NCBI RefSeq assembly: GCF_003367705.1
Contig: NZ_CP031425.1
Span: 2,976,001-3,040,000 of the forward strand
DNA: 64,000 bases
Direction of reading: 5' to 3'
Origin: Microbacterium foliorum
GTDB taxonomy: Bacteria > Actinomycetota > Actinomycetes > Actinomycetales > Microbacteriaceae
Shown here: in pieces, positions 1,251-47,438 of the stretch
Position numbering within the stretch: position 1 is the first letter of the stretch
How the letters are laid out: each line of letters begins with the position of its first letter
Notes under the pieces: generated by a model
Database searches by the model: none
What the model saw: the letters and a program-made list of their open reading frames with translations, nothing else
What the model was told of the DNA's origin: nothing
Position numbers and translations under genes: made by a program

Positions 1251-2225
1251 TTACCTCACTCGCACGCGCGGGTCGAGCCGCACGTAGAAGATGTCGATCA
1301 GGAAGTTGGCGACCAGCACCGCGCCGGTCAGGGTGAGGAAGATGCCCTGCATGAGCGGGTAGTCCAGAGCCTGCACGGCCCGGAGCAGCTGGTAGCCGAT
1401 GCCGGGATAGGCGAAGACGACCTCGGTGAGCAGCGCGCCGCCGACCACGAAGCCGATCGACATCCCGAAGGAGGTCACCGAGGGCAGCATGGCGTTGCGG
1501 GCCGCGTAGCGGTACATGATGCGCCGCTCGGTCAGGCCCTTCGCGCGCGCCATCGTGATGTAGTCCTCGGCGGCGGTGCCGATCATCGTGTTGCGCATGC
1601 CCAGCATCCATCCGCCGACCGAGACCGCCACGATCGTGCCGGCGGGCAGGACGAGGTGCAGCAGCAGGTCGCCGATGAACTCCCCGCTGAAGGAGGGGAC
1701 GGTGCCCAGCGTGAAGGCCTGACCGATCGGGAACCACTTCAGGGTCACGGCGAACAGGTACAGCGCGATCATCGCGATGAAGAAGTAGGGGAACGACCCG
1801 GTGAACACCAGCAGCGGCGGGAAGATGGTGTCCAGCGCACCGCCGCGCCGCCAGGCCGCCCAGATGCCCAGCAGGTTGCCGAGGACGAACGAGATCACCA
1901 GCGCCGTGCCGCCGAGCAGGATCGTGTACCCGAGCTGCGCGCCGATCACCTGCACGACGGGCGTCGGGAACTGCGAGATCGAGAGGCCGAGGTTGCCGGT
2001 GAAGACGTCGCCGATGTACTGGATGTACTGCTGCCACACCGGACGGTCGTCGAGACCGAACAGGTGTCGGAACTGCGCGACCTGATCGTCGGTCAGGTTC
2101 TGCATCTGACCGAGCATGCGGCCGACGGGGTCGCCAGGCATCAGGCGCGGGAGCAGGAAGTTGATCGTGAGGGATGCCCAGAACGCGATCAGGTAGTAGC
2201 CGAGTCTGCGGAGAACGAAAGCCAT
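1251..2225 (-). CDS. ABC transporter permease, DppB/OppB type
   Basis: A 324-residue membrane permease. The N-terminus FVLRRLGYYLIAFWASLTINFLLPRLMPGDP is the hallmark of DppB/OppB proteins: a first transmembrane helix followed by the PGDP motif. The C-terminal half carries the conserved loop MARAKGLTERRIMYRYAARNAMLP, which contacts the ATPase. The ATG at 2225 has a GAGAGG ribosome-binding site 6-8 nt upstream, and a longer in-frame extension has no such support. It follows the binding-protein gene with a gap of about 95 nt and is followed within 2 nt by the DppC-type gene. Confidence 0.92.
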   Translation of the reverse strand: MAFVLRRLGYYLIAFWASLTINFLLPRLMPGDPVGRMLGQMQNLTDDQVAQFRHLFGLDDRPVWQQYIQYIGDVFTGNLGLSISQFPTPVVQVIGAQLGYTILLGGTALVISFVLGNLLGIWAAWRRGGALDTIFPPLLVFTGSFPYFFIAMIALYLFAVTLKWFPIGQAFTLGTVPSFSGEFIGDLLLHLVLPAGTIVAVSVGGWMLGMRNTMIGTAAEDYITMARAKGLTERRIMYRYAARNAMLPSVTSFGMSIGFVVGGALLTEVVFAYPGIGYQLLRAVQALDYPLMQGIFLTLTGAVLVANFLIDIFYVRLDPRVRVR

Positions 2226-2320
2226 CAGATGCCTCTCAACGTGGTCGCCGCTGGTCGCGGGCGGGGAACGGATGGAGAAGGGTGCCGGTGGCGGCGCGGA
2301 GGCGCCGCCACCGGGAGCCC

Positions 2321-3988
2321 TCACTCGCGCGGGCGGATGTTCGCCAGCACCATCACGGTGCTCGAGACGCTGGCCGACAGCGTCGCGTAGGGGTCGTCCT
2401 CGCTCGGCCAGCCCACGAAGTTGGTGCTGTTGTAGGCACCCCACTCCGGGCCGGGGAACAGCGGGATGGTGGGCGCGGACTCCGAGTAGACGGCCTGCAG
2501 CTTGTCCATGACGGCCGCCTGCTCCTCGTCGCTGGTGGCCGCGGCGAACTGATCGAGCAGCTGGTCCGCCTCTTCACTGCAGAAGCGCTGGAAGTTCTGG
2601 GTCGCCTCCTCGCCCACGGGCTTCACCGTGCGGCACGACATCGCGCTGCGGTAGTACTCGAACGGCGTGACGCCCGCGCCGCTCCAGGCGATGTTGCCCT
2701 GGAACGTACCGCCGAACAGCGCCTGGTTGATCTGCGACCAGTCCTGCACCTTCAGCGGTGCGCTGATGCCGAGCTCGGTCATGTTGTCGGAGATCACCTG
2801 GGCGACCGCGATCCAGTCGGTCGAGGCGGACCCGACGCCGATGCTGAACTCCAGCGGTGCTCCGTCGGGAGTGACGCGCATGCCGTCGGCCCCGCGCTCG
2901 TAGCCCGACGAGTCGAGCAGCGCATTCGCGGCATCCACGTCGTAGGTGGTCCAGTCGCACTGCGAGACGAGTGCCTCGTCGCGCCACGTGTCGTACGCGT
3001 CGCTCAGGCCGGTGCAGTCGGAGGGGTGCGTGTAGCCGTTCATCCCCTTGGCGACGACGGCCTCGCGGTCGATGCCCATGCTGATCGCCTTGCGGAGGTT
3101 CACGTCGTCGTAGGGCCCCTGCGCGGTGTTGAGCGTCAGGGCGATGGTGGAGCCGACGGCCGGGAACCAGTAGCCGCGGTGCTCGGGATCGACATCCACG
3201 TAGGTCTTCTGGATGTCCTGGATGAAGCCGAGGCCGAAGTCGATGTCGCCGTTGATCGCGGCGATGTTCGCGGCGTCGTTTCCGCCGTAGGCGATGACTC
3301 GGATGCCGGTGTAGTCGGCCTTGTCCTTCTGCCAGTAGTGCGGGTTGCGGAGCAGGTCGAAGGACTGCGCCGAGAAGTTGGCGACCTCGGTGAACGGGCC
3401 CGAGGCGACGGGGTCGGAGTTCTGGAACTTCGCCGGGTCGTCGACGTCCTTCCAGATGTGCTCGGGAACGATCAGCTGAACACCCAGCTCATACAGGCCG
3501 GGCGTGTAGGGACGGTTGAACGCGAAGGCGACCGTCGTGTCATCGGGGGTCGCGACCGAGTCGACGTACTCGTAGGTCGACTCGCCGAGCACCTCGCGGG
3601 CGAGGTCGAAGGAGTACGCCACGTCCTCCGACGTCAGCTCCTCGCCGTCGGACCAGGTGAGGTCGTCGTTGAGCGTGAAGGTGAGCGTGAGTCCGTCGTC
3701 GCTCCACTCGTACCCGGAGGCGAGCCAGGGCACGATCTCGCCCTTGGGGAGGTTCGTCACCATCATCGACTCGTAGACGGCGTTCTTCGACATCGCGACC
3801 GCGGTCGGCGAGAAGGGGTTGAAGTTCTGCACGAACGACGCGTTGCCGATCGCGGCGACGCGGAGCATGTCGGACTTCGCACCGGACATCGCCGGCGCAC
3901 AGCCCGACAGCGCCATGGCGGCCGCGCCGACCACGGCGGTAGCGCCAACTAACGCGCGCCAGAAACGGCGCGAACGAGAAGTGGTCAT
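2321..3988 (-). CDS. ABC transporter substrate-binding lipoprotein, family 5 (SBP_bac_5)
   Basis: This 555-residue protein has an N-terminal lipoprotein signal: positive residues, a hydrophobic stretch, then the lipobox LSGC near residue 30. The mature part is a full-length family-5 solute-binding domain. Visible landmarks are FSPTAVAMSKNAVYESMM, the segment LTFTLNDDLTWSDGEELTSEDVAYSF, and LRKAISMGIDREAVVAKG. Such proteins bind di/oligopeptides or oligosaccharides outside the membrane for Dpp-type permeases. Here the linked LacI regulator and neighbouring glycosidase operon point to an oligosaccharide ligand, but this is inference. The 5' end of the gene (3949-3968) resembles one arm of the inverted repeat found upstream of the LacI gene. 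Confidence 0.9.
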   Translation of the reverse strand: MTTSRSRRFWRALVGATAVVGAAAMALSGCAPAMSGAKSDMLRVAAIGNASFVQNFNPFSPTAVAMSKNAVYESMMVTNLPKGEIVPWLASGYEWSDDGLTLTFTLNDDLTWSDGEELTSEDVAYSFDLAREVLGESTYEYVDSVATPDDTTVAFAFNRPYTPGLYELGVQLIVPEHIWKDVDDPAKFQNSDPVASGPFTEVANFSAQSFDLLRNPHYWQKDKADYTGIRVIAYGGNDAANIAAINGDIDFGLGFIQDIQKTYVDVDPEHRGYWFPAVGSTIALTLNTAQGPYDDVNLRKAISMGIDREAVVAKGMNGYTHPSDCTGLSDAYDTWRDEALVSQCDWTTYDVDAANALLDSSGYERGADGMRVTPDGAPLEFSIGVGSASTDWIAVAQVISDNMTELGISAPLKVQDWSQINQALFGGTFQGNIAWSGAGVTPFEYYRSAMSCRTVKPVGEEATQNFQRFCSEEADQLLDQFAAATSDEEQAAVMDKLQAVYSESAPTIPLFPGPEWGAYNSTNFVGWPSEDDPYATLSASVSSTVMVLANIRPRE

Positions 3989-4005
3989 GATTTCCTTTCA
4001 TCTTT

Positions 4006-4019
4006 GAACAGGACTGTTC
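4006..4019. promoter_or_regulatory. Short palindrome upstream of the family-5 binding-protein gene
   Basis: GAACAG-GA-CTGTTC lies 18 nt upstream of the binding-protein start codon, in the only gap between the LacI gene and the transporter genes. The 6-bp arms are perfect. It could be a regulator site, though its centre lacks the CG typical of LacI-family operators, so the assignment is weak. Confidence 0.3.
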
Positions 4020-4035
4020 GGGTGTCGAAACGGGC

Positions 4036-4052
4036 TCCCGCATCGTGCGGGA
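4036..4052 (-). terminator. Small hairpin after the first LacI gene
   Basis: The sequence TCCCGCA-TCG-TGCGGGA forms a 7-bp stem with a 3-nt loop just downstream of the LacI stop codon. There is no clear U-tract on the transcribed strand, so it may only attenuate or mark an RNA end rather than act as a strong intrinsic terminator. Confidence 0.3.
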
Positions 4053-4062
4053 ACCCTGCGGG

Positions 4063-5067
4063 TCAGGTCAGGATCGAGACCGAATTCCGGGCGATGGGAG
4101 GGCAGGCCACACTCACGTGGGACGGCGGCTCGCCGTCGGCCGCATTCATGAGCAGTTCGGCACCCCGCTCCCCCATCTCGCGGAAGGGCAGGGCGACGGA
4201 GGAGAGGCCGGGTCGCAGCGATCCGGCGATGATCTCCTGGTTGTCGAAGCCGACGATCGAGATGTCTTCGGGGATCCGCAGGCCGAGCTCCCTCGCAGCC
4301 TCGTACGCCCCCATCGCGATGCGGTCGTTGGCGCAGAACAGGCCGTCGACGTCGCCGTCGCGCAGCAGCTCGATCGCGACCCGGTAGCCGTCTTCGGCCT
4401 CGGGTCCGGACCGGACCATGAGCGTGGGGTCGAGGGGGATCCCCGCATCGGCCATGGCGCGGCGATAGCCGGCCTCGCGACCTTCGGCGGCCACGAGATC
4501 GCTCGGCAGATTGATGAACGCCACCCGCCGACGCCGCGCCTCGAGCAGCATCGAGGTGGCGGAGTAGCCGCCGTTCTCCTCGTCGGGAAGGACTGTCGAG
4601 TAGCGTCCGAGCGGGTCGAAGCAGTGCACGAGCACGACAGGAACCCCGTCGAGGGAGGCGGGCAGGTCGATGGGCCGGTTCCAGGTGGTGGCGACGATGA
4701 TGCCGCCGACGCGGTGCTCGAGCATCATCTCGATCGACCGGGCGTCCGGACGCTCGATGTGCGCGGCACCCGCGATGATGAGCGACTTGCCGTGGCGCCA
4801 GAACCAGTCCTGCGCCCCGGCGATCAGATCGCCGCCGAAGGGCGTCGACACGATGTCGGTCACGAGCCCGAACAGGTCGGTCCGCTGTCCTGCGAGCGCC
4901 CTGGCTCCGGCATTCGGGCGATACCCGAGTTCGGCCGCCCGCTCCCGCACGCGGTCACGGGTCTCGGCCGAGACCTGGTTCTCGTCGTTGAACGCGAACG
5001 ACACCGCCGAGCGGGAGAGACCGAGATCTCTGGCTACGTCACTCATGGTGACGGGTCGCTTCGTCAT
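4063..5067 (-). CDS. LacI-family transcriptional regulator
   Basis: A 334-residue repressor of the usual LacI-family length. The N-terminal helix-turn-helix reads VTMSDVARDLGLSRSAVSFAFN, followed by the hinge helix region (YRPNAGARALAGQRTDLFGLV) and a periplasmic-binding-protein-like sugar sensor with CANDRIAMGAYEAARELGLRIPEDISIVGFDN. It is a clear paralogue of the regulator encoded immediately upstream, sharing for example MMLEH, VPDE/LPDE and the GFDNQ region. The ATG at 5067 has no ribosome-binding site and lies 6 nt from a large inverted repeat, so a leaderless transcript is possible; the alternative ATG at 5046 also lacks one. It probably controls the downstream Dpp-type transporter operon and itself. 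Confidence 0.93.
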   Translation of the reverse strand: MTKRPVTMSDVARDLGLSRSAVSFAFNDENQVSAETRDRVRERAAELGYRPNAGARALAGQRTDLFGLVTDIVSTPFGGDLIAGAQDWFWRHGKSLIIAGAAHIERPDARSIEMMLEHRVGGIIVATTWNRPIDLPASLDGVPVVLVHCFDPLGRYSTVLPDEENGGYSATSMLLEARRRRVAFINLPSDLVAAEGREAGYRRAMADAGIPLDPTLMVRSGPEAEDGYRVAIELLRDGDVDGLFCANDRIAMGAYEAARELGLRIPEDISIVGFDNQEIIAGSLRPGLSSVALPFREMGERGAELLMNAADGEPPSHVSVACPPIARNSVSILT

Positions 5068-11921: not shown

Positions 11922-13877
11922 CTATCCACGGTGTGCCGATGACAGCACGTGATCCACGGCATCGACGAAGAAGTCCGCTGCGGCTTCATCGAAGCTGAGC
12001 GGAGGTTTGATCTTCAGCACGTTCATGAGGTTTCCGGTGGGCTGCACGATGATCCCGCGTTCGAGCAGTCGTTCGCAGATCTCCGTCGTCTCGGTGGTGG
12101 CGGGTTCGAGCGTGACCCGGTCGCGCACGAACTCGACGCCGAGATACAGCCCCTCCCCGTGCACCGCGCCGATGATCTCGTGACGGTGCGCGAGTCCCTG
12201 CAGGCGATTCTTCAGGTGTGCGCCGACCCGTCGGGCGTTGCCGGCGAGGTCTTCGTCGGCGATGACATCCAGCACCGTCGAGCCGACGACGCTCGAGACC
12301 GGGCTGCCTCCGGTCGAGGAGAAGAAGTACCCCTCAGCCGCATAGCTCGCGGCGATGGCTCTCGTGGTGACCACGGCACCCAGCGGATGTCCGTCGCCGA
12401 AGGACTTGGCGATCGTGACCAGGTCAGGGATGACGCCCTGCTGCTGGAATCCCCAGAACCACGTGCCGAGCCTGCCGAGCCCGACCTGCACCTCGTCCGC
12501 GATCGTCAGTCCTCCTGCCGCCCGCACCTCGGAGTACACGGTCTTCAGATAGCCGTCAGGAAGCGTCACACCGCCCGCACCTCCGTACACCGGCTCGCAG
12601 ATGAACGCCGCCGGTGGTCGGCCTGAGGAGACGAGCTCTCGAACCACGGCCGCGGCGTCATCTGCGTAGCGGCTCGCGTGCTCACCGCGGTGCCGGCCCC
12701 GGAAGGCGTTCGGCACGTCGAGGGTGTGCACCCACTCGGGCCGGGATTGCAGGGCACGGGGGTTGTCTGCGCTGGAGGTCGACACCGCATCGGCGAGGTA
12801 CGTCCAGCCGTGGTACCCCTCGCGCACCGCCAGCAGATCATCGCGTCCGGTGTGCACGCGCGCGAGGCGCAGTGCGAGCTCGACCGCCTCCGAGCCGGAG
12901 TTGACGAAGAACACCGTGTCGAGGCTCTCGGGGAGCAGCGCGGTCAGCTTCTCGGCGAGCGTGACGATCGACTGATAGTGGAACCGGGAGTTGGAGTTGA
13001 AGGTCCGCCATTGATCGGCGATCGCGCGCGCCACTCTCGGGTGGCTGTGTCCGAGCACGGTGACGTTGTTGACCATGTCGAGGAAGACGCGTCCGTCGTC
13101 GGCGATGAGATGGTGCTTCCATCCGCGATCGATGCGCGGAGGGCGGGCGTAGTAATGCTCCTGCACGTCTGCCAGCACGGCCGCCCGTCGGTCCAGCAGG
13201 TCGCCATCCCCACTGCCGTCGACTGTCGCCTCCCCGTCTGCAGCGACGAGACCGAATACCGCTGCGGGGTTCCCGAGCTGAGAAATCCACCCCACGGCAT
13301 GGTCCGGCAGTACCGCGTCGGGGATCTCGGCGTCGACGTCGGCTGCCGCGACGGAGAGTCGGTAGCGCACCCCCGGCCGCAGCGTCGCGAGATGCTCACC
13401 GACGCCCAGGGACGGAGCCGCGGGGAGACCCGACATGTCCGGATCCGCAGAGATCCGAAGGGTCGCGCTGTCACCGGCGAGGACGATCTGCGTGCCTGTG
13501 GCGGCCACGTTCCCCGACCACGGCGCCAGGATCCGCGTCTCGCCCGACACCCACAGGTCCGTACCCGTGCGCCAGGTGGCCGCAGGATCTGTGGCGAGCG
13601 GACGACTCCGAGTGGCGTCGATCGCGCCGAACGGCGTGACGACGATGTCCGCTCCCTGCGCGAAGAGCGCGTCGACGGCCTCGGAGACGGCGCGACGCGC
13701 GTCCGCGTCGGTCATCCAGGCGCCATCGTCGAGGAGGCGACTGCCCACGCGGAGGTCGAGCTCTGCAGCAGAGGGATCGCCGTCGAACAACCGCGCGGCC
13801 GTGACCTCCACCGGGGAGCCGGGTGGCCGGAGACCCAGGTGCTGGGCGATGATCTCCGTCATCACCGGCGACGGCAC
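11922..13877 (-). CDS. Class-III aminotransferase-fold PLP enzyme with N-terminal M23-like domain (downstream half of a split gene)
   Basis: This 651-residue frame starts at a GTG at 13877. Residues ~60-230 look like a degenerate M23 (LytM) domain: DLWVSGETRILAPWSGNV matches the fold, but the metal-binding His residues are absent. Residues ~240-651 are a class-III aminotransferase fold with VNNVTVLGHSHPRVARAI, NSGSEAVELALRLAR and the PLP lysine in TIAKSFGDGHPLGAV. Related bacterial proteins are single chains of about 1000 residues with an APH kinase in front. That kinase lies upstream in the same reading frame, separated only by one TAG codon (13904-13902). Animal enzymes of this fold include phospholyases acting on phosphorylated amino alcohols. 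Whether the split form is translated is unknown. Confidence 0.75.
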   Translation of the reverse strand: MPSPVMTEIIAQHLGLRPPGSPVEVTAARLFDGDPSAAELDLRVGSRLLDDGAWMTDADARRAVSEAVDALFAQGADIVVTPFGAIDATRSRPLATDPAATWRTGTDLWVSGETRILAPWSGNVAATGTQIVLAGDSATLRISADPDMSGLPAAPSLGVGEHLATLRPGVRYRLSVAAADVDAEIPDAVLPDHAVGWISQLGNPAAVFGLVAADGEATVDGSGDGDLLDRRAAVLADVQEHYYARPPRIDRGWKHHLIADDGRVFLDMVNNVTVLGHSHPRVARAIADQWRTFNSNSRFHYQSIVTLAEKLTALLPESLDTVFFVNSGSEAVELALRLARVHTGRDDLLAVREGYHGWTYLADAVSTSSADNPRALQSRPEWVHTLDVPNAFRGRHRGEHASRYADDAAAVVRELVSSGRPPAAFICEPVYGGAGGVTLPDGYLKTVYSEVRAAGGLTIADEVQVGLGRLGTWFWGFQQQGVIPDLVTIAKSFGDGHPLGAVVTTRAIAASYAAEGYFFSSTGGSPVSSVVGSTVLDVIADEDLAGNARRVGAHLKNRLQGLAHRHEIIGAVHGEGLYLGVEFVRDRVTLEPATTETTEICERLLERGIIVQPTGNLMNVLKIKPPLSFDEAAADFFVDAVDHVLSSAHRG

Positions 13878-13901
13878 AGATGCGGCCCGGTCGAAGATGA
13901 G

Positions 13902-13904
13902 CTA
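13902..13904 (-). other. In-frame TAG codon splitting the kinase-aminotransferase protein
   Basis: The kinase frame ends ...YARDGLARE-TAG and the same frame continues LIFDRAASVPSPVMTEII into the M23/aminotransferase part without a further stop. The joined length would be about 988 residues, as expected for the three-domain family. One base change from TGG, CAG, GAG or AAG would explain the codon. It is either a sequencing error, a recent nonsense mutation, or a site of readthrough or reinitiation at the GTG at 13877. Confidence 0.75.
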
Positions 13905-14888
13905 CTCGCGCGCGAGACCGTCCCGGGCGTACTCGTTGGAGTCGTCCGTGCCGACCTGCTGATGACCACTCGTCACCAGCACCGCCCCGCGCATGATGAC
14001 GAGGGGCCACAGGGCCTCCACCTCGGGGATGCTCAGCGGACGGATCCGGTGGAACTCCCGGACGGCAGGCAGGACCGACGACGCGGACGCGCCGTCATGA
14101 TGCAGGACCGACGAGATCGTCGTCGCGAGCTCCGCGACGCGCCAGGAGAGCATCAGGTCGCCGAAGTCGATCACACCGTCCAAGACCCTGTCGTCGCCCC
14201 GTGATGCGGACCGCATCAGGTTGTCGTCGGTCAGATCGCCGTGCACGACCTGCACAGGCAGCAGCGCAGCCACCCGCTCGACGCGGGCGGCCTCCGCACG
14301 CGCGACCCTCACGAGCCGCTCCCGCAGCACCGCGTCCGGGATGTGCTCCGCGAGGAACTCGACCACTCGCGATCCCTGGCGCAGGTCCCACTGCAGCACT
14401 CGTTCCGCCGGCGTGTGCGGAAGGCTCGACAGCGCGGCGCTCATCTCGCCGCACACTCGCCCCATCGCCGCGACGGAACGAGGCGAGAGAGGCGCGCTCC
14501 CGTGCAGCGTCCCCCCGTCGAGATAGCGGATGAGTCGTACGACGTGAGTGCCGCTCGGCGCCTCCAGCAGAGCGACGTCGCCGATCCGCGTCGGCGCGCG
14601 CAGCCCGGGGACCGCATCGACCGCCCACTGCGCGGCACGATCCTGATCGTCGACCGCCTCGACGTCGAACGCGCTGTTCGAGACCTTCATCACCGCGACC
14701 CGATCACCGCTCACTCCGCCGCGAGCGATGAGGAGGAAGTTCGCATCCTGCTGGCTGCCCAGATCGACGGCATCCACGACGAGGCCGAACGCCTCCTCCG
14801 CCCACCGCTCGGCCAGCGCTGCCGTGACGATCGGCGCCGGCAGCTCCCCCGCCTCGAAGAAGTCGAATCCGAGAGTGTTCTCGTTCAT
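13902..14888 (-). CDS. APH-family kinase (N-terminal part of the kinase-aminotransferase protein)
   Basis: A 328-residue aminoglycoside-phosphotransferase-fold kinase. Visible motifs are the catalytic loop VVHGDLTDDNLM and the metal-binding VIDFGDL, with an N-lobe lysine in RVAVMKVSN. In this family such domains phosphorylate small hydroxylated metabolites such as hydroxylysine, homoserine or choline, not only antibiotics. The ATG at 14888 has only a weak GGCGAG upstream. It is open in frame with the preceding SDR because of an apparent +1 shift there. Together with the class-III aminotransferase fold it suggests phosphorylation of an amino alcohol followed by phospho-elimination; this pathway is inference. 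Confidence 0.75.
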   Translation of the reverse strand: MNENTLGFDFFEAGELPAPIVTAALAERWAEEAFGLVVDAVDLGSQQDANFLLIARGGVSGDRVAVMKVSNSAFDVEAVDDQDRAAQWAVDAVPGLRAPTRIGDVALLEAPSGTHVVRLIRYLDGGTLHGSAPLSPRSVAAMGRVCGEMSAALSSLPHTPAERVLQWDLRQGSRVVEFLAEHIPDAVLRERLVRVARAEAARVERVAALLPVQVVHGDLTDDNLMRSASRGDDRVLDGVIDFGDLMLSWRVAELATTISSVLHHDGASASSVLPAVREFHRIRPLSIPEVEALWPLVIMRGAVLVTSGHQQVGTDDSNEYARDGLARE

Positions 14889-14920
14889 GGTCAATTCTCG
14901 CCGTTCTTTCGTCACGGGTC

Positions 14921-15695
14921 TCAACGCCCGCGTTCTTCGGTGATGGAGTTGCCCCCCGTCGACAGTGATCAACTGCCCGGTGATGTACGACGCCGCCTCG
15001 TCGGCGAGGAACCCGATCACGGATGCGACCTCATCCGCGGTGCCGGATCGCCCGACTGGAGTCGCTGCACCCATGGCCCGTTCGCGATCTGTCGCCGACG
15101 CCGTATCGATCCATCCCGGCGCGACCGCATTCACGGTGATTCCCGCAGGCGCCACTTCGACCGCCGCCGCGCGGGTCAGCCCCACGACTCCCGCCTTCGC
15201 CGCGTGGTACGCCACGTCTCCGACGAATGCAGCGACAGGTCCGGAGACCGACGAGACGTTCACGATCCGGCCATAGCCCCGATCCCGCATCCCGCCGACG
15301 ACCGCGCGGATCACCGAGAACGTGGTGGTGAGGTTCCGTTCCAGCGAGGCGTGCCATCGGTCAGCGGAGAGCTCATCGATCGCACCGGGCTCGTCGGGGT
15401 CCGACACCGAGGTCATTCCGGCGTTGTTGACGAGCACATCCACGCAGCCGTAGGTCTCCTGTGCGCATGCGATGACGGCGTCCACCCCGCTCTGCCTGGT
15501 GAGATCGGCCACGATCCCCACGGCCTCCACCCCGGCCGCTCGCAGCTCGTCGACGCGGCCGAAGATGCGCTCCGTCGTGGAGGTGAGGACCAGACGCATC
15601 CGCTCGGCGCCGAGTCGTCGAGCGACGGCGAAACCGATGCCATGCTCGCTGCCGACCCCCGTGATGAGGGCGACGGGCAGGTGGGGCGACGTCAT
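14921..15695 (-). CDS. Short-chain dehydrogenase/reductase (SDR), C-terminal frameshift
   Basis: A classical SDR of about 257 residues with the cofactor motif TGVGSEHGIGFAVA, NNAG, a catalytic YHAAK (Tyr-x3-Lys) and the C-terminal VDGG. As written, the frame then reads QLHHRRT and runs into the kinase gene. In a run of six G (14957-14952 on the minus strand), removing one G restores DGGNSITEERGR followed by TGA (14923-14921), which is the usual tail of this SDR group. So the apparent SDR-kinase fusion is almost certainly a +1 shift in a homopolymer. Its ATG overlaps the amidohydrolase stop by 4 bp. Confidence 0.85.
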
Positions 15696-17323
15696 GATCG
15701 CCGCTCGCCGGCGTCGACGACGACGCCACCGTCGACGATCGTCAACAGCACCGCGGCCTCGCCCAGGCTCTCGGGATCGACCGTCCGAGGATCACGGTCG
15801 AGCACGGTGATGTCGGCGACGGCGCCCGCCCGCAGAACACCGCCGGTGCGACCGATGGTGCGATAGGGCTCCACCGTCAACCCGCGTAGCGCCGTCATCG
15901 CATCGAGCGCCTGATCCGGGCCGATAGGCGGCGCGGCGGGGTCGTCGTGCGGGCGCCGCAGCTGCGCGTCCGCGAGGATGCCGACGGCGTCGCTCGGAGC
16001 GACGGGCCAGTCCGACCCGAGCGCGAGCGGAATCCCGGCGCTGACGAGATCACGGGTACGGAATCCGCGGCCCGCGCGGGCATGGCCCAGACGTCGCGAC
16101 CAGTTGTCGCTCTCATCCGCTTTGGTGAAGAGCGTGCAGTGGGTCGGCTGCATGCTCGCGGTCGCCTTCGACGACATGAAGACGGCCAGTGCGGCATCCG
16201 TCATCGTCTCGATGTGCTCGATACGGTGCGTCGCCGCGGGCTCCGTCAGACCGTCGATCGCGCGCACCACGAAGTCGATCCCGGCGTCACCGATCGCGTG
16301 CGTCGTCGTGGGGATGCCACGCCGGTCGAGCTCGGTGAGTGCGTTGCGGTATTGGTCGGGGTCGAGCCACAGCGAGGTGGTGGACTCTCCGAGACAATCC
16401 GGCTCATGCAGCCAGGCCGTGCCGTTGTCGATGGTGCCGTCGATCATGAGCTTGACGCCCTCGACCACCCAGTGCCGACCGTGAGCGCCCTGCAGTGCGG
16501 CCAGCCGGACCACCTCTTCGATCGGGGTCCCCGGCACGTACCAGGGCGACATGCGCAACCGGATCGGCAGTTCGCGCGTCTCCTCGATCGCTTTCAGGAG
16601 GTCGATCGCGTCGGGCGCGAGGTCCTGCACCTGTCCGGAGGTGAATCCGCCCCTGGCCATGTTCAGGAGCACATCGTAGAGGGCGTCGACGCGGTGCTCG
16701 AAGCTCAGCGGGGGAAGCACCTTCTCCACGAGGTCGATGGCCTGAAGCTCCAGGAGGTAGCCCGTGGGGCGGCCCTGTCCGTCGGTCACGACGCGGGAGC
16801 CGTCGGTGAACTCTTCGCGACCGGTGACGCCGCCGAGCGCGAGTGCCGCATCGGACGCCAGCGCGGCATGGGCGTCGAAGAAGCGGATGCGGGCGGGCCG
16901 CTCGCCCGCCACGGAATTCAGGACCGCGTGGGAGACGGGCTCTTCACCGAACACGTTCGGGTCGAGCCCCCAGCCGAGCAGCCAGTCGTCGGCTGCCAGT
17001 CCGGCGACCTCGGCCCGGAGCGCCGACTCGACCTGGACGAGTGTGCGGCACCGACTGAGGTCGACTCCGCGGGTGAGTTCGATGCCGAACACCGGATGGA
17101 TATGGCTGTCGACGAACCCCGGGAGGATCACCGCATCGGGAAGATCGATGACGCGAGTCGTCTCGTCGATCCAGGCCTGCAGCGCGGCCCTGCGTCCGAC
17201 CGCCACCACCTCGCCGGAGACGATGGCCACGCCCTCGGCCCCGTCGGAGGTCGTCGGGTCGGACTCCATCGTGACCACCGTGCCCGCGAAGACCACCAGG
17301 TCTGCGATGCCTTCGCGCGTCAT
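15692..17323 (-). CDS. Amidohydrolase family protein, YtcJ type
   Basis: A 543-residue metal-dependent hydrolase. The metal-binding motif is FVDSHIHP near residue 75. The carboxylated-lysine region appears as VVEGVKLMIDGTIDNGTAWL, later metal ligands in THAIGDAGID and HRIEHIE, and the final aspartate in LALGSDWPVAPSD. Length and motifs match the YtcJ/N-substituted formamide deformylase group, cytoplasmic enzymes that hydrolyse amide or formamide bonds. It overlaps the APC permease stop and the SDR start by ATGA junctions, so it is co-translated with them. The substrate is unknown but is probably the amine or amide imported by the permease. Confidence 0.88.
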   Translation of the reverse strand: MTREGIADLVVFAGTVVTMESDPTTSDGAEGVAIVSGEVVAVGRRAALQAWIDETTRVIDLPDAVILPGFVDSHIHPVFGIELTRGVDLSRCRTLVQVESALRAEVAGLAADDWLLGWGLDPNVFGEEPVSHAVLNSVAGERPARIRFFDAHAALASDAALALGGVTGREEFTDGSRVVTDGQGRPTGYLLELQAIDLVEKVLPPLSFEHRVDALYDVLLNMARGGFTSGQVQDLAPDAIDLLKAIEETRELPIRLRMSPWYVPGTPIEEVVRLAALQGAHGRHWVVEGVKLMIDGTIDNGTAWLHEPDCLGESTTSLWLDPDQYRNALTELDRRGIPTTTHAIGDAGIDFVVRAIDGLTEPAATHRIEHIETMTDAALAVFMSSKATASMQPTHCTLFTKADESDNWSRRLGHARAGRGFRTRDLVSAGIPLALGSDWPVAPSDAVGILADAQLRRPHDDPAAPPIGPDQALDAMTALRGLTVEPYRTIGRTGGVLRAGAVADITVLDRDPRTVDPESLGEAAVLLTIVDGGVVVDAGERRS

Positions 17324-18792
17324 CGCCCTTCTCCGTTCTCGATGCGGGCCGTCTCAGGATCGGCACCGCCGATGCGTGCGAACACCTCGGGCCGGCGCGC
17401 CCGGAGGATGAGTGCGTATCCGGCGCCGAGCAGCAGCACCACGGGGACGACGGCGAGGATGATCGCGTTGATCGCGGGGCCGGCCGCCGTCAGGTAGTCG
17501 ATCGTGATCACCAGGACGACGAGAAGCACGGCCATCGCGACCAGCGAGACGATGGCAGCCGGCAGGACGTACCACCGGCGCGCCAGATGCCTGTTGCGCA
17601 TGATGAAGATCAGCACGGCGATCGAGGCCAGGAGCTGCAGCGTGATGATGCCGTAGACACCGGGGGAATTCACGAGGATCACGAGCTGAGTGAGCGGGTC
17701 GAGGCCGGCGGTGCCGAACGCGATGACGACGATGATGGCGACCACGCTCTGAATCACCCCGGCGACCCAGGGCGCACCCCTGCGGTTGGTCCTGGTGAAC
17801 GCCGAGGGAAGGATCCCGTCCCGCGACAGCGCGAAGCTGTAGCGGTTGATCGCGTTGTGGAAGGCGAGCTGGCCGGCGAAGATGCTCGTCACGATCAGCA
17901 CGAACATCACTGACACTCCCCAATCCCCCACGTACGCGCCCATGGCGGTGAAGAAGAAGGCCGCGGGGTCCTGAGCGATCACGCCCTGCACCTCGCTGTC
18001 ACCGAATGCCTGGATCACCAGCCACAGGGTGGCCGTGTAGAAGATCGCCAGGAATGCCACGGCGATGTAGGTCGCCCGCGGGATCGAACGATCGGGGTCG
18101 CGGGTCTCACTGCGGTAGAGGACGGTCGACTCGAACCCCATGAACGCGGCGAATCCGAATCCGAGGATGGCGAACATGCTCGGCGTGAAGATGTTCTCGG
18201 GCGCGAACGTCCCGAACTCGAGCTGCCCGGCGCGCTGGGTGAGGATCGACGCGGCGAGCACCACGAGCAGGATGGTCTCGAGGACCAGGAGCACTCCCAG
18301 CACCTTCGCCCCCACATCTACTCCGGCGACGGCCAGCGCGAAGACGAGCACCGCGCCGACGACCGCGAGGATCCACCACGGCACGTCGATGCCGAAGACG
18401 GTGGCGAACATGCCCTGCGCCATGACCCCGAACAGACCCCAGAGACCGATCTGGAGAAGGTTGTAGGAGATCCAGGCCAGGAAGCCCGCCGCGAGTCCGA
18501 CCACCCGGCCGAGGCCGACCGCGATGTAGGTGTAGAAGCCTCCCATCGCGGTGAGGTTGCGCGCCATGAAGAGGAATCCGACGGCGAACACGGCGAGGAC
18601 GATGCCCGCGACGGCGTAGACGATCGGGGCCGAGACGCCGCCGATCAGGACAGCCAGGGGTCCGATCCCCGCGAGAACGCTCAACGGGGCCGCAGCCGAT
18701 ATGACGAGGAAGACGACCCCCCACGCACTGAGGGCTGCTTTCTTCAGCTGGCCGGTGTGCTCCTCGTTTCGAAGAGACGTCTGCTGGGTCAT
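17320..18792 (-). CDS. APC-family amino acid/amine permease
   Basis: A 490-residue membrane protein with about 12 hydrophobic segments. The first reads ALSAWGVVFLVISAAAPLSVLAG, the usual first helix of APC superfamily amino acid/polyamine transporters. Further landmarks are ARNLTAMGGFYTYIAVGLGR and FMGFESTVLYRSETRDPDRSIPRATY. The ATG at 18792 follows a strong GGAAGGA site. It leads the operon permease-amidohydrolase-SDR-kinase-aminotransferase. It resembles a second APC permease at 41.1-42.6 kb in this window, for instance around FHNAINRY...LTRTNRRGAP-type loops. The substrate is probably a small amine or amino acid derivative. Confidence 0.92.
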   Translation of the reverse strand: MTQQTSLRNEEHTGQLKKAALSAWGVVFLVISAAAPLSVLAGIGPLAVLIGGVSAPIVYAVAGIVLAVFAVGFLFMARNLTAMGGFYTYIAVGLGRVVGLAAGFLAWISYNLLQIGLWGLFGVMAQGMFATVFGIDVPWWILAVVGAVLVFALAVAGVDVGAKVLGVLLVLETILLVVLAASILTQRAGQLEFGTFAPENIFTPSMFAILGFGFAAFMGFESTVLYRSETRDPDRSIPRATYIAVAFLAIFYTATLWLVIQAFGDSEVQGVIAQDPAAFFFTAMGAYVGDWGVSVMFVLIVTSIFAGQLAFHNAINRYSFALSRDGILPSAFTRTNRRGAPWVAGVIQSVVAIIVVIAFGTAGLDPLTQLVILVNSPGVYGIITLQLLASIAVLIFIMRNRHLARRWYVLPAAIVSLVAMAVLLVVLVITIDYLTAAGPAINAIILAVVPVVLLLGAGYALILRARRPEVFARIGGADPETARIENGEGR

Positions 18793-18876
18793 GGCGTGCT
18801 TTCCTTCCGTCGGGTGGCCGACCTGCTCAACACGCCTGCGGGTCGTTGGACGACAGTGTGGCGCACGGAACATCGG

Positions 18877-18896
18877 TTGCGCAATCGATTGGGCAA
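18877..18896. promoter_or_regulatory. 20-bp LacI-type operator between the APC permease and LacI genes
   Basis: TTGCGCAATCGATTGGGCAA is a palindrome with 9 of 10 paired positions and a central CG (CAATCGATTG), a typical LacI-family operator shape. It lies in the divergent intergenic region, 85 nt from the permease start and 44 nt from the regulator start, so one protein could control both directions. Confidence 0.75.
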
Positions 18897-18939
18897 TATT
18901 GATACCCAGCGGCGACATAGGATCGACAGGGAGGTCACG

Positions 18940-19959
18940 ATGTCATCGACACGAGCCGCGACGCTGCAAGACGTCGCCGATCTGTGCGGAATCTCTCGAG
19001 GCACGGCATCCCGCGCGCTCGCCGGCACCGGTCGCGTCTCCGCCGAGACGAGACGTCGGGTACTCGAGGCGGCGCAGGCCCTCAGCTACTCGACGAATAG
19101 CGGAGCGCGCAACCTCCGCCAGGCGCGGGCCGGCTCGATCGGACTCTGGCTGCCTCGCGGCATGAACTTCATGGAGTACTACATGAACTTCGCCGTCGGC
19201 GTCGTGCAGAGCACCGAGGATCGGGAGCTGACGGTGTCTCTGATTCCCGCAGAGTTCCCCGCCGCCAAGGCCCGAGCCCTTCATGTCGACGGATTCGTGA
19301 TGACGGATGTGATCGGCGGCGACGAGCTCGCCCGCGCGATCCTCGAATCCGGGCGCCCTGTGGTGACATCCGAACTCGTCCCCCCGGGGATGCCCGAGCC
19401 CACCGTGGCCCTGGCCGGCGATCACCGCACCGCGATGAATCGGCTGCTCGATCGGCTGCGCGCGAGCGGCGCGACGTCGATCGCCGTCGTCCGGCCACTG
19501 ATAGATCAGATGTGGGCGCGACTCGCGGCCGACGCCGCCGCGGACTGGGCGGACGCCACCGGCATCACCGTGAGGTTCATCGACCTCCATGGTGTGCCCT
19601 CTGCCGAGGAACTCCATTCGATGATCCGAGGCCTGCACGAGGATCACCCCGACGTGGACGCGATCGTGTGCCTCCCCGAGGGCCTCGGCGTCGGCATCCT
19701 GTCCACCCTGCGCGAACTCGGCCACGCCGTCCCCGACGAGGTCCAGCTGGTCGCGTACAACGACAGCCCCGCGCTGCAGATCGTGCAGCCGCCGATCTCA
19801 TCTCTCGATCTGCGCGCTCAGGATGCCGGGATGCGGGCAGGCGCGATGCTCATCTCCCTCATCGAGAAGGCCGATGACTCCGTGCACGGCACGGAGTGGT
19901 TCGACCTGATCTATCGCGAGCGAGCCTCCACCCGCCCCGTCTCACCCGCGCACTCTTGA
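18940..19959 (+). CDS. LacI-family transcriptional regulator of the APC/amidohydrolase operon
   Basis: A 339-residue LacI-type regulator: HTH AATLQDVADLCGISRGTASRALAGTGRVS, hinge YSTNSGARNLRQARAGSIGL, then an effector domain ending with VPDEVQLVAYNDSPALQIVQPPISSLDL. The ATG at 18940 has AGGGAGGT upstream; an in-frame extension to 18757 would run through the operator and is rejected. Divergent orientation to the permease operon plus the 20-bp palindrome between them supports local control of that operon. The effector-binding part is less similar to the two LacI regulators at 4-6 kb than they are to each other. Confidence 0.92.
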   Translation: MSSTRAATLQDVADLCGISRGTASRALAGTGRVSAETRRRVLEAAQALSYSTNSGARNLRQARAGSIGLWLPRGMNFMEYYMNFAVGVVQSTEDRELTVSLIPAEFPAAKARALHVDGFVMTDVIGGDELARAILESGRPVVTSELVPPGMPEPTVALAGDHRTAMNRLLDRLRASGATSIAVVRPLIDQMWARLAADAAADWADATGITVRFIDLHGVPSAEELHSMIRGLHEDHPDVDAIVCLPEGLGVGILSTLRELGHAVPDEVQLVAYNDSPALQIVQPPISSLDLRAQDAGMRAGAMLISLIEKADDSVHGTEWFDLIYRERASTRPVSPAHS

Positions 19960-32190: not shown

Positions 32191-35100
32191 TCAATCGGGC
32201 AGTGCGATCTCCACGCCTTCATCCTCGGCCGAGCGGGCAACGATGAGGCGAAGCGGACCATCCGGATCGACCCAACCGTTCTTCTCCGAATCCCAGTATG
32301 CGAACGAGCGCCGATCCACCTCCACGGGAACGTGTCGCCTCTCCCCCGCAGCCAGCACCACCCCCTGGAACGCGACGAGCCTCCGGGCGGGAAGATCGAG
32401 CTCTTCCGGTCCGCCCGTAACGTAGACCTGAATGACGTGCCGTCCGTCGCGGTCGCCGGTGTTCTGCACGAACACATCGAGGAGAATCGTCCCCGCGTCG
32501 TCCCCCTCACAGAGTTCCGCACTCATCTCGAAGGTGGTGTACCCCAAACCGAATCCAAAGGGGTAGGCGGGCCGCACCGCGTTTCGCAGCCACGCGCGAT
32601 ACCCGATGTATACGCCTTCGTCGTAGCGAAGCACGCCGTCGCGGGGTGTCACGTCCAGGACAGGAACGTCGTCCATGCCGTCGGGCCACGTCATGGGCAG
32701 GCGCCCGGTCGGTTCACGGTCGCCGAAGAGCACGTCGGCGAGAGCATGACCATACTCCTGCCCGCCGAACCACGAGAGCACGATCGCGTCGACCTCGCTG
32801 CGCCAGGGCAGAAGAACAGGAGCTCCCGAGTTCACGACGACGACAGTGGGCGTACCGGTCGCGGCGACGGAGCGGACGAGTTCATCCTGACGCCCCGGAA
32901 GCGACAAGTCGGTCCGGTCCGAGCCCTCGGCTTCGACCCGGCTGTTGGTTCCCACCACGACCACCGCGACATCGGCATCACGGGCTGCGGCGACAGCATC
33001 CACGATCAGCCGACCGCCGTCGCTGCTCGCGTCCAGACCGTAGGCAAAACTGAAGAAGAGGTCACTCGGGCGTGTGCTCAGGTGATGCTCGTACCGGAGC
33101 AGGACTTTTCCGGGGATCTCATTCAGCCAGGATGCGATGGGCGGACTGAGGAACGAAGCACCCAACTCGATCCCGTCGACCTCGAGGGTCGCGTCCAACA
33201 CGGTGCGCCCGTTCACCGAGAGCACGGTCCGGCCCGCTGCTGCGAAGCCGATCGGCATCCACCCCGTGTCGCCAGGCGTGAATTCGGTCGTCACGACGAC
33301 CATGTCCGCGTCGCTCAGAGGCGCCTCGGGATCTAGGTCCACGAGCATGTTCGCGCCGCGTATTTCGCGATGTATCTCGCGACCGTCCGCCATGAGCTGC
33401 ACGAGTACGCCGTTCTGGGTCGTTCCGGGGACGTTGATGCGCTCCAAGGGAAAGTCGAGCAGGTCATCCGCAATGGCGACCCCTGGTGCATACGTGACGG
33501 ATGCCCCGTGAGCGGCGCGAGATATGCCCTCCAACGGCGATATCACTTCTTCGGGCAGAACAGTGGCGCTCCCACCTCCCTGAATTCGTGGATAGCGGGC
33601 GGCCTGCCCGCAGACCGCGATGCGCGATCCGTGTCGACGGCTCAGGGGAAGGGTCGGCGTCATGTCTCGCACCGCGTTGTGCACGAGGACCATCCCGGAC
33701 GCTGCAGCCTCACGAACGAATGAGATCGAATCCTCGGCAACGTGATCTGCAGCCATGGGAGAGACCGAGTCAAGCGCACCGACCCGCACGGCCAGCAGGA
33801 GAATGCGCAACACCTTCTGGTCGATATCACGCACAGGGATGTCACCTGCACCTACCGCGGCGATGAGAGCAGCACCCCAGGGGCCCTCCGGCCCCGGCAT
33901 GACAAGGTCTTGCCGGCCCCGCGCGGCCGCCACCGATCGCACTGCACCCCAATCGCTCACGACAACCCCGTCGAAGCCCCATTCGTCGGACAGAATCTCC
34001 TGGAGAAGCGGACTTTCGGTCGCTGTCACTCCGTTGATCGCGTTGTACGCGCTCATGACGAGCCACGCCTTGCTGTCGCGCACAGGCCCCTCGAATGCTC
34101 GAAGATACAGCTCTCGGAGTGCTCTGTCACTCACCGTGACAGAGGCTGTCAATCGATCGGTCTCGAAGTCGTTCGCGACGAAATGCTTCGGTGTCGCAGC
34201 GACCCCCCGCGACTGAACGCCATCGACGTAGGCGGCAGCCAGGTCGCCGGTCAGCAGAGGATCTTCGCTGAATGATTCGAAACTCCGGCCGCCGAGAGGG
34301 GATCGGTGGAGATTGATCGTGGGCCCCAGCACGACGTCCACGCCCTTGCGTCGCGCCTCCTTCGCCGCATGTTCGCCATACCGGCGAGCAAGGTCGGTGT
34401 TCCACGACGCAGACAGGGCCGTGGCAGACGGGAAACTCACCGATGGGTCGCGCTCATCCCACCACTCACCGCGGACACCCGATGGGCCGTCGGACAACAC
34501 CATGGAGCGCAGTCCGACCTCCTCGATCGCGGCGGTGCTCCAGAATGTCGATCCGGTCAGCAACTCGACCTTCCGTTCCAGCGTCAGACGCTCAAGAAGG
34601 CAACGTAGGTGCGCGTCGAGAGCATCGCCCCTTGTCGCCGCAGGTCCCTGCGGCCACGGGTGACCCACGACGACCGTCGATGGCCTGCCGTAGACCTTCG
34701 TGACGGAGTCCGCGAGAGTGAACGGGCTCCACGGAGCTCGGCGAGTCTTGATGAAGGTGACGGCGTCGTCGAAGAAGTCCGTTCCGTCCGCGGCGCTTCC
34801 GAGGTGGGTGTCGCCGACGGCGAAGAAAGCGGGCACATCTGCGCAGTGCGGAGTGATGTCATGCCCCATCGGGGGCCGCGCGAAGTCGTAGAGCCAGGTC
34901 TGAGCACCTCGACGTGCGCGCTCACGAGCGATGTGAGCGACCGGCCCGCGGAAGACGAGGTCCGTGACGGCGCGGCCCAGCACACGCGCCGGGCTGTCCG
35001 ACGCATGATCGCGAAGGATACGGGTGGCAGCGTGGTCGCTGATTCCGAGTTCGCGGAGCATGTGCGCGGGGTTCCGCCCGTCGAGGTCGTCGCTCTTACT

Positions 35101-36081
35101 GAAGATGTCGGAGAACTCGCCGTCAGTGGCCCCCAGCAGGAGAGGCTTCTCGGCACCATTCGCAATGCCTGCCGGCCAGAGAGCACCGTGCGGCAGCAGG
35201 TCGCCATCGATCACCGGCGCGAAGGCCATCCCGGGGTCGAGGAAGCTCCGGGCAAGAGCCATGGAGTCCGACCAGTCGATGTCCTCGACGTCGATGCGAA
35301 CGCGCTCTACGACACTCTCATCGATCTGTGAGAAGTCATGGCGCGTGGGAGGGATCCCGAGCGCTGTCGCGACAGTATTCGTGGCCTCCCGCGACCGGAC
35401 GAGCGGCACATCCCCCACGGCGGGCGACAGGGCGATGCCCGCTGAGAACAGTCCCGATGCCTCGGGACAGGCCATCAACGTCAAGACGGCGCCGCCGCCC
35501 GCTGACTGCCCGGCTACGGTCACCCTCTCGGGGTCACCCCCGAAGGAGGCGATGCGATCCCGGACCCACCGCAATCCGGCAACGAGGTCACGCATCCCAC
35601 GATTCGTTGGCGCCCCGTCCAGAGATCCGAAGCCGTCAACCCCCAATCGGTAGGACAGGTTGACCGTCACGATGCCGCGGCGAACGAATTCAGCACCGTC
35701 GTACCAGGGGCTGGCCGGACTCCCACCGATGTATCCGCCACCATGGATCCAGACCATGACCGGGAGGAGTTCGACGCCGTCTCGAACGCTAGGTGTGAAA
35801 ACGGATGCGTTCAAGATCGAGCTTCCCTGCACCGCAGGCTCAGGGATCGAGGTGAACAAGTCCGCCACCTCAGCCCTCAGCGGCGTGGCACCGGGCTCCG
35901 TGGCATCCAGGACATCGCCCCATGGCACGACAGATGACGGTGCCGCCAGGCGCAGCGATCCTGTCGGCGCCTCCGCGTAGGGGATGCCCAGGAAGCGGTC
36001 GGTCATGCCGTCGCTCGTCCCGCGAACCGTCCCAACCGGCGTGGATACTTCAACATGGGTGCGATTCGCGGACTGATCCAT
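32191..36081 (-). CDS. Carboxylesterase-GH3 beta-glucosidase fusion protein
   Basis: A 1296-residue two-enzyme protein. Residues ~1-470 are a type-B carboxylesterase: oxyanion segment WIHGGGYIGG, nucleophile in GQSAGG (Ser193), acid near Glu322 and His near 412 (PHCADVPAFF). Residues ~485-1296 are a GH3 glycosidase: KHFVANDFE, nucleophile in GFDGVVVSDWG (Asp710), the C-terminal alpha/beta domain and a fibronectin-III-like tail (RRLVAFQGVVLAAGERRHVPVEV). Neither part has a signal peptide. The start at 36081 has GGGAGGAAAATC upstream; a longer frame to 36132 would cross the operator. It may de-esterify and deglycosylate the same imported plant glycoside. I see no frameshift between the parts. 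Confidence 0.85.
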   Translation of the reverse strand: MDQSANRTHVEVSTPVGTVRGTSDGMTDRFLGIPYAEAPTGSLRLAAPSSVVPWGDVLDATEPGATPLRAEVADLFTSIPEPAVQGSSILNASVFTPSVRDGVELLPVMVWIHGGGYIGGSPASPWYDGAEFVRRGIVTVNLSYRLGVDGFGSLDGAPTNRGMRDLVAGLRWVRDRIASFGGDPERVTVAGQSAGGGAVLTLMACPEASGLFSAGIALSPAVGDVPLVRSREATNTVATALGIPPTRHDFSQIDESVVERVRIDVEDIDWSDSMALARSFLDPGMAFAPVIDGDLLPHGALWPAGIANGAEKPLLLGATDGEFSDIFSKSDDLDGRNPAHMLRELGISDHAATRILRDHASDSPARVLGRAVTDLVFRGPVAHIARERARRGAQTWLYDFARPPMGHDITPHCADVPAFFAVGDTHLGSAADGTDFFDDAVTFIKTRRAPWSPFTLADSVTKVYGRPSTVVVGHPWPQGPAATRGDALDAHLRCLLERLTLERKVELLTGSTFWSTAAIEEVGLRSMVLSDGPSGVRGEWWDERDPSVSFPSATALSASWNTDLARRYGEHAAKEARRKGVDVVLGPTINLHRSPLGGRSFESFSEDPLLTGDLAAAYVDGVQSRGVAATPKHFVANDFETDRLTASVTVSDRALRELYLRAFEGPVRDSKAWLVMSAYNAINGVTATESPLLQEILSDEWGFDGVVVSDWGAVRSVAAARGRQDLVMPGPEGPWGAALIAAVGAGDIPVRDIDQKVLRILLLAVRVGALDSVSPMAADHVAEDSISFVREAAASGMVLVHNAVRDMTPTLPLSRRHGSRIAVCGQAARYPRIQGGGSATVLPEEVISPLEGISRAAHGASVTYAPGVAIADDLLDFPLERINVPGTTQNGVLVQLMADGREIHREIRGANMLVDLDPEAPLSDADMVVVTTEFTPGDTGWMPIGFAAAGRTVLSVNGRTVLDATLEVDGIELGASFLSPPIASWLNEIPGKVLLRYEHHLSTRPSDLFFSFAYGLDASSDGGRLIVDAVAAARDADVAVVVVGTNSRVEAEGSDRTDLSLPGRQDELVRSVAATGTPTVVVVNSGAPVLLPWRSEVDAIVLSWFGGQEYGHALADVLFGDREPTGRLPMTWPDGMDDVPVLDVTPRDGVLRYDEGVYIGYRAWLRNAVRPAYPFGFGLGYTTFEMSAELCEGDDAGTILLDVFVQNTGDRDGRHVIQVYVTGGPEELDLPARRLVAFQGVVLAAGERRHVPVEVDRRSFAYWDSEKNGWVDPDGPLRLIVARSAEDEGVEIALPD

Positions 36082-36104
36082 GATTTTCCTCCCGACGTCG
36101 GCCT

Positions 36105-36120
36105 GTAACCATTTGGATAC
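36105..36120. promoter_or_regulatory. TetR-type operator upstream of the esterase-GH3 gene
   Basis: GTAACC-ATTT-GGATAC matches the GTATCC-N4-GGATAC palindrome with one change in one arm. It lies 24 nt upstream of the esterase-GH3 start, between that gene and the TetR gene. Confidence 0.65.
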
Positions 36121-36185
36121 TAACGCACCCATCGGACGGCGTCACCCCGTGCACCCGTCGAACGCCGGCGTGCGCGGGGTGACGA

Positions 36186-46687: not shown

Positions 46688-46838
46688 CCGGTCCGTGGCA
46701 GTCCGCCTGAAAGGCCTTCCCATGTAAAGTTTTTAGCACATTTGCGCCATGTTCTTTTTACGGCACCTGACGATGATGGTATATTTTTATAACCAAAACG
46801 TGCGGTGCGATTTTTCGAACACAGATGGGGTGGCCACG

Positions 46839-47438
46839 GTGAAGCTGCAGACACCATCAGACCTCGCGCGTATGGTCAAGAACGCCCGCGTCCAGCGCAA
46901 CCTCACCCAGCAGGACGTCGCCGACGCTGTCGGCATCACCCGTCAGTCCCTCGCCCGCCTCGAACGCGGCAACGGCGGCACCTCCTTCGACACGGTGTTG
47001 CTCATCCTCGACCACCTCGGCATCCACCTGGACGCCACCACCGAGCGCCGCATCCCTCGCGCCACGACCGTCGCGACGGGTGCCGCCCAGGCAGCGGCCG
47101 ACGCACTCGCCACGCGCATCACACCGCTGATCGGCTCGGGCACGCTCGGAGCACTCGACAAGCAGCTCCTTGGCTCGCTCCCTCGGATCGCCCCCTCGCT
47201 CCCACCCGAATTCGACACCTCTGGCATCCTCAAGCAGATCGAAGCGAACCTCGGCCCCGCTACGCTCGCCTCCATCCGCGAAGCCTCCCGCGGACTCACC
47301 GAGCGTCTCACCGTCCCGGGCTCCGTCCTCATCGATCCGCCTCGCGCGGTGGAAGCCGGCTCCAGAGCCGCCGCGGATGCCCGAACGGCGGAAGCCCGAA
47401 CGGACGCCGACCCGCATGCCGAGGCAGGTATCGAATGA
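46839..47438 (+). CDS. HipB-like HTH antitoxin
   Basis: A 199-residue protein with an N-terminal Xre/Cro HTH (ARMVKNARVQRNLTQQDVADAVGITRQSLARLERGNGGTSFDTVLLILDHLGIHL), as in HipB, and an unusually long alanine-rich C-terminal extension. The GTG at 46839 with GGGGTGG just upstream is favoured; a GTG at 46830 or an ATG at 46749 are in frame but the latter crosses an AT-rich promoter stretch with TATATTTTTATA. It overlaps hipA by ATGA, as in coupled toxin-antitoxin pairs. It would bind HipA and its own promoter. Confidence 0.8.
   Translation: MKLQTPSDLARMVKNARVQRNLTQQDVADAVGITRQSLARLERGNGGTSFDTVLLILDHLGIHLDATTERRIPRATTVATGAAQAAADALATRITPLIGSGTLGALDKQLLGSLPRIAPSLPPEFDTSGILKQIEANLGPATLASIREASRGLTERLTVPGSVLIDPPRAVEAGSRAAADARTAEARTDADPHAEAGIE

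Follow-up and report, generated by a model that had tools for sequence, protein, structure and literature searches.

An in-frame TAG in a kinase/phospho-lyase gene of Microbacterium foliorum, beside a frame-slipped SDR gene, suggests recent gene loss

The interrupted gene and its family

This analysis concerns a gene of Microbacterium foliorum for a kinase joined to a pyridoxal 5'-phosphate (PLP) phospho-lyase-like enzyme, which is interrupted by an in-frame stop codon. It lies on the minus strand of a stretch of 64,000 nt (assembly GCF_003367705.1, contig NZ_CP031425.1, positions 2,976,001-3,040,000 of the forward strand), hereafter referred to as the window, in which all coordinates are counted. 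Translation that starts at ATG 14888 and runs to the stop at 11922 gives 988 codons if the TAG at 13902..13904, the sole internal stop (position 329), is read through; read on the minus strand, this TAG is flanked by YARDGLARE before and LIFDRAASVPSPV after, and the final stop of the frame is TAG as well. The part ahead of the stop (13905..14888, minus strand, 328 codons from ATG 14888) is an APH/RdoA-like kinase, and the part behind it (11922..13901, minus strand) comprises a middle domain and a PLP phospho-lyase/aminotransferase. The downstream piece offers two in-frame restart candidates, GTG 13877 and ATG 13862, and a database protein of 646 aa (P0015 in our numbering of homologues) that starts at the latter corresponds to it. 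The original prediction, made from the letters alone, held that the TAG splits a kinase-M23-aminotransferase protein which, if joined, would have about 988 residues, the normal size of its family. The split, the length and the size were all borne out, as the same frame continues past the TAG to 11922 and of the 120 homologues listed all but 4 measure 916-1014 aa. The M23-like label was not reproduced: Pfam (E <= 0.001) identified domains of short-chain dehydrogenase/reductase (SDR) and phosphotransferase (APH, PF01636) type in the upstream open reading frame (ORF), the class III aminotransferase domain (PF00202, Aminotran_3) in the downstream ORF, and M23 in neither, and the middle part is rich in strands in the model predicted for a homologue, which neither establishes nor rules out M23.

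The NCBIfam family NF004800 (PRK06149, "aminotransferase"; 972 positions) exhibits the same order of kinase and aminotransferase. The kinase piece matches its positions 4-324 and the downstream piece 327-970, so that together they cover the model nearly end to end; unlike a member of the family, the window gene is interrupted, and its separate pieces score 282.6 and 848.6 bits, below the curated cut-off of 973. That two halves of one curated family abut across a single stop is more than chance. The family motifs are retained in both pieces, including IAKSFG, whose lysine (equivalent to K835 of P0003, an intact homologue from Microbacterium sp. PMB16, and unchanged across 67 sequences) we take to be the PLP binder; PF00202 and this conserved lysine place the window protein among the class III aminotransferases.

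An AlphaFold2 model of P0003 (mean pLDDT, the predicted local distance difference test, 89.2; 67 sequences) puts the place of the stop at residue 335, within a predicted helix (325-341) that is followed by another (346-356). According to the model, a kinase ending at the TAG would lose part of the former and all of the latter. Among solved structures, the closest relatives of the lyase part by sequence include the ethanolamine-phosphate phospho-lyase (6tor in the PDB, 1.1e-99) and the phospholyase A1RDF1 of Arthrobacter aurescens TC1 (5g4i, 4.5e-77), which are also closest by fold to the predicted model of P0003; unlike the window family, their chains (446-499 aa) are without a kinase part. 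The kinase part itself has no sequence relative among solved structures at E <= 0.001. Because an APH-type kinase is fused to a phospho-lyase-like part, the intact enzyme most likely carries out, by analogy, two steps: phosphorylation of a hydroxy-amine and then elimination of phosphate and ammonia, so that its putative substrates would be hydroxylated amines that are phosphorylated and then cleaved. A literature search, which reached little subscription content, found nothing on this bacterial kinase-lyase fusion.

A second lesion in the upstream SDR gene

The ORF terminated by TAG 13902 runs over 13902-15695 (597 aa) and opens at 15695, within the gene of an SDR oxidoreductase (14921..15695, minus strand). 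The claim that the kinase frame stops at the TAG therefore held for the stop and failed for the opening of the frame, which lies in the SDR gene because the latter is broken by a one-base frame slip, at a run of six G (14952..14957, minus strand; C6 on the plus strand). Over 242 residues, the window SDR shares 75% identity with that of locus L039, which stands directly upstream of the same kinase-lyase enzyme, and the alignment stops at GG near the end. There the window SDR frame reads DGGQLHHRR and the neighbouring frame GGNSITEERGR, then a stop at 14921-14923, which puts the slip nine codons ahead of the normal SDR stop. A match to the window SDR was found in 6 of 109 loci searched; at this point each of the six reads DG(G/A)NSI, followed closely by an acidic pair. 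Three of these loci (L041, L067, L074) do not have the SDR as the immediate upstream neighbour of the enzyme on its strand. The original prediction overlooked this frame slip, which is a second lesion. The 597-aa "SDR-kinase" ORF is, on this comparison of frames, most likely the product of that lesion, and the kinase would have its own start at ATG 14888.

The place of the stop in relatives

In an alignment of the query with 120 listed homologues, the place of the stop is occupied by Trp in 60, Arg in 28, Gln in 24, Val in 2, Gly in 2, and Glu, Ala and Ser in one each; a gap, contributed by the window's own piece P0015, and the query's X complete the column. It is thus tolerant of other residues in the more distant homologues. 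The 13 closest full-length homologues (P0002-P0014, 70-82% identity), the comparison that the original prediction had called for, exhibit Gln in 12 cases and Glu in one, and we accept its view that one base substitution is the simplest cause of the split.

We gathered 95 loci (14, 80 and the window's own), in which some genomes occur twice and paralogous subfamilies are included; 93 of them cover the place in a single frame, and a stop is present there in the window's own alone, a residue standing in all 92 others. Close relatives are therefore not consistently two proteins divided by a stop at this place. Of the remaining two loci, L111 matches the lyase part only, and L114 is in three pieces and two frames. 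A survey that scored two candidates in each of 366 genomes of the genus returned 124 strong matches (E <= 1e-150) in 122 genomes, and here too the disabling lesion is absent from the relatives, the window's match being the one among the 124 with an in-frame stop. Twenty-four of the 124 start after the place; three of these (G319, G312 and G020) were inspected, and the partial matches in G312 and G020 sit at contig edges.

Breaks of other kinds occur in the family. In G319, a single-contig genome, the gene is broken at a different point, where the frame slips within a C6 run at about position 624 of P0003 (L199, G319:C1:729500-737500, 3504-3509, minus strand), inside the lyase domain. In L114, from a Microbacterium metagenome-assembled genome (MAG), the match at 1329-4178 breaks near residues 296-324 and shifts frame again near 570. 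Judging from these sequences, interruptions arise occasionally in this kinase-lyase family, with none demonstrated as a stop at this place.

We also considered whether relatives are consistently split, and rejected the idea, as the 77 proteins from a search for kinase-sized homologues end at many different places. Eight of the 77 lose their similarity to P0003 no more than 10 residues from the place. Two of them (P0233, P0236) come from contigs shorter than 2 kb, three (P0282, P0284, P0285) are distant kinases (28-31% identity), and the other three (P0238, P0252, P0262; 44-45% identity, on contigs of 88-652 kb) finish there in unmatched tails of 33, 17 and 79 residues, respectively. The sequences of the last three suggest that they may be independent breaks near the place, possibly frame slips in other species.

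Inactivation or sequence error

We consider it fairly probable that the enzyme was recently inactivated. According to this interpretation, the gene would normally encode a one-piece bifunctional enzyme (kinase, middle domain and PLP phospho-lyase of the class III aminotransferase fold); in this lineage, a nonsense mutation of codon 329 would have abolished the joined enzyme, and, with a separate frame slip near the end of the upstream SDR gene, the last two genes of the presumed operon would be decaying. Early pseudogenization is the best fit to a pair of lesions in neighbouring genes. The window's own genome also contains, outside the window, a full-length paralogue (G000:C1:1153529-1156444, 45% identity, 1006-aa open frame), so the loss of the broken enzyme may be tolerated.

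The main rival is a sequencing or assembly error, which would mean that the real gene is uninterrupted and that the slip in the G run of the SDR gene is an error too; we regard this as unlikely. The two lesions are about 1.05 kb apart, and slips in homopolymers are a classic type of sequencing error, to which the SDR lesion conforms; the frame slip of G319 in a C6 run of the same family and the fragmented MAG locus L114 point the same way. Substitution to a stop, on the other hand, is a rarer error than an insertion or deletion, which argues against an error at the TAG. The 646-aa downstream piece P0015 is recorded as one sequence on 10 contigs, of which the longest (3,568,138 bases) has the size of this genome; the best full-length protein among the homologues listed is 82% identical, and none of those listed is a near-identical full-length version. 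Had a contig lacked the interruption, it would most likely have yielded a longer protein; the split thus probably extends beyond a single contig. The protein database searches returned neither of the upstream products (597 aa and 328 aa), which suggests that the upstream stretch is annotated as a pseudogene. Across the same genome, in-frame stops were found in 0 of 120 matches to PF00005 (150 of 180 candidates scored) and in 0 of 9 matches to PF00202 (one of the nine in the window), on which grounds we rejected a poor assembly overall, although frame slips are invisible to such counts.

The window lineage has also changed somewhat faster. With the majority of P0005-P0014 as reference, the changes on the window side outnumber those on the side of P0002, P0003 and P0004 by 47:26, 65:34 and 70:37, respectively, and the excess is present in all three parts of the protein. 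A maximum-likelihood tree of 18 sequences places P0002 as the sister of the window protein, with terminal branches of 0.170 for the window and 0.111 for P0002, and among the 14 close sequences the root-to-tip distance is greatest for the window protein. Of the 488 columns that do not vary among the other 13, the window protein departs at 12; P0010 is highest with 14 of 490, and the remaining 12 range from 2 to 10. A sequence error would not raise the rate of change, so the faster branch, modest as the excess is, counts against error; it may reflect relaxed constraint, to judge from these comparisons.

Several observations weigh against inactivation. Taken part by part, the departures at invariant columns (3/148, 4/52 and 5/285) lie within the ranges of the intact relatives (0-5, 0-4 and 0-7), which also speaks for an error, and the lineage may have sped up before the stop arose. 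The 10 contigs might represent repeated deposits of a single strain. The counts of in-frame stops in PF00005, PF00202 and the genus survey are blind to frame slips, and both lesions, known from assembled sequence alone, are of kinds that errors also produce. The original prediction had left the choice between a sequencing error and a fresh nonsense mutation open; on balance the evidence favours the nonsense mutation, short of proof.

Restart, readthrough and re-partitioning

Could the split be a working one? The kinase would then end at the TAG, either alone or as the 597-aa SDR-kinase fusion, and the lyase would restart at GTG 13877 or ATG 13862. In animals, hydroxylysine kinase and phospho-lyase are separate enzymes; the stop lies between positions 324 and 327 of NF004800, beyond the Pfam kinase match; and the motifs of both pieces are kept, without gross decay. 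The distant proteins P0282-P0287 (335-358 aa, 27-31% identity) resemble stand-alone kinases, and the solved phospho-lyases 6tor and 5g4i manage without a kinase part. Against this, the anti-Shine-Dalgarno duplex of GTG 13877 amounts to -2.3 kcal/mol and that of ATG 13862 to +1.7 kcal/mol, as compared with -5.9 to -9.3 kcal/mol at six of ten further presumed starts; the remaining four, which include the kinase start ATG 14888 with -3.6 kcal/mol, have -1.3 to -3.6 kcal/mol. Since four of the ten starts are weak as well, GTG 13877 is weak but within range, and the Shine-Dalgarno comparison alone is compatible with a restart. The cut falls inside the predicted helix 325-341, with helix 346-356 lost, the SDR would be deprived of its conserved last residues, and a stop here is absent from every relative in the loci and genomes examined. 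We therefore regard a working split as improbable; of the restart at GTG 13877 put forward originally, the in-frame codon stands, and little supports its use, there being no strong Shine-Dalgarno sequence and a helix cut through.

Amber readthrough, programmed or driven by a suppressor, would yield the joined protein, and the frame as well as most of the downstream residues are indeed retained. In-frame stops under purifying selection have been reported in bacteria, including a TAG/CAG case in Paenibacillus (PMC7918605). The present case resembles it in having a single in-frame TAG at a place where Gln stands in the nearest relatives, and differs in that the window stop is confined to one lineage among those examined. 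Two features by which readthrough might be recognized, a stop conserved across species and a tRNA with the CUA anticodon, are both lacking: ARAGORN assigned this anticodon to none of the 45 tRNA genes found with the Rfam model. As the frame's own terminator is also TAG, general reading of TAG is unlikely, and readthrough at 13902, one of the possibilities raised originally, finds no support here and appears very improbable. That the operon has been re-partitioned, with the slip giving a working SDR-kinase fusion (597 aa) and the TAG freeing a lyase translated by coupling, is barely credible; if true, an SDR-kinase fusion and a separate lyase would represent gene fission and fusion caught in one lineage.

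Neighbouring genes and other frames in the window

Upstream of the SDR gene, on the same strand, lie the genes of an amidohydrolase (15692..17323, minus strand; PF07969, profile 1-472 of 472), which overlaps its neighbours by 4 bases at both ends, and of a permease of the amino-acid permease family (APC; 17320..18918, minus strand; PF13520, 1-425 of 427). A divergent LacI-type regulator follows (18757..19959, plus strand, the ORF as listed; the true start is probably further inside). The permease, amidohydrolase, SDR and kinase/lyase genes apparently form an operon, of which the last two are affected by the lesions. By analogy, the permease, amidohydrolase and SDR would fit uptake of an amine, its deacylation, and alcohol or aldehyde handling.

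Two other frames of the window deserve mention. The ORF at 32191-36132 (minus strand, 1313 aa) joins a carboxylesterase to a GH3 glycosidase within a single frame. Among the matches listed from 38 relative genomes these halves were matched separately, with one exception in G011 (C12:390222-391739; query 367-887; 1269-aa open frame), which spans part of both; a natural fusion, a lost stop and a frame slip are the alternatives. The HipA-like ORF at 46805-48787 (plus strand) has about 214 residues ahead of the HipA N-terminal domain, possibly due to a wrong start or a fused upstream partner.

Implications

The locus resembles an ordinary young bacterial pseudogene in its isolated nonsense lesion, open remainder, broken neighbour and the presence of a paralogue; it differs in that the loss of function is deduced here from sequence. 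It has the look of ordinary gene loss of recent date, or of an error in the sequence, and not of a new mechanism. For annotation, this means that two adjacent broken genes, those of the SDR and of the kinase/phospho-lyase, should be marked, instead of an SDR-kinase fusion and a stand-alone aminotransferase. Should the stop be real and common to isolates, an operon that probably serves amine catabolism would contain a clean, young lesion.
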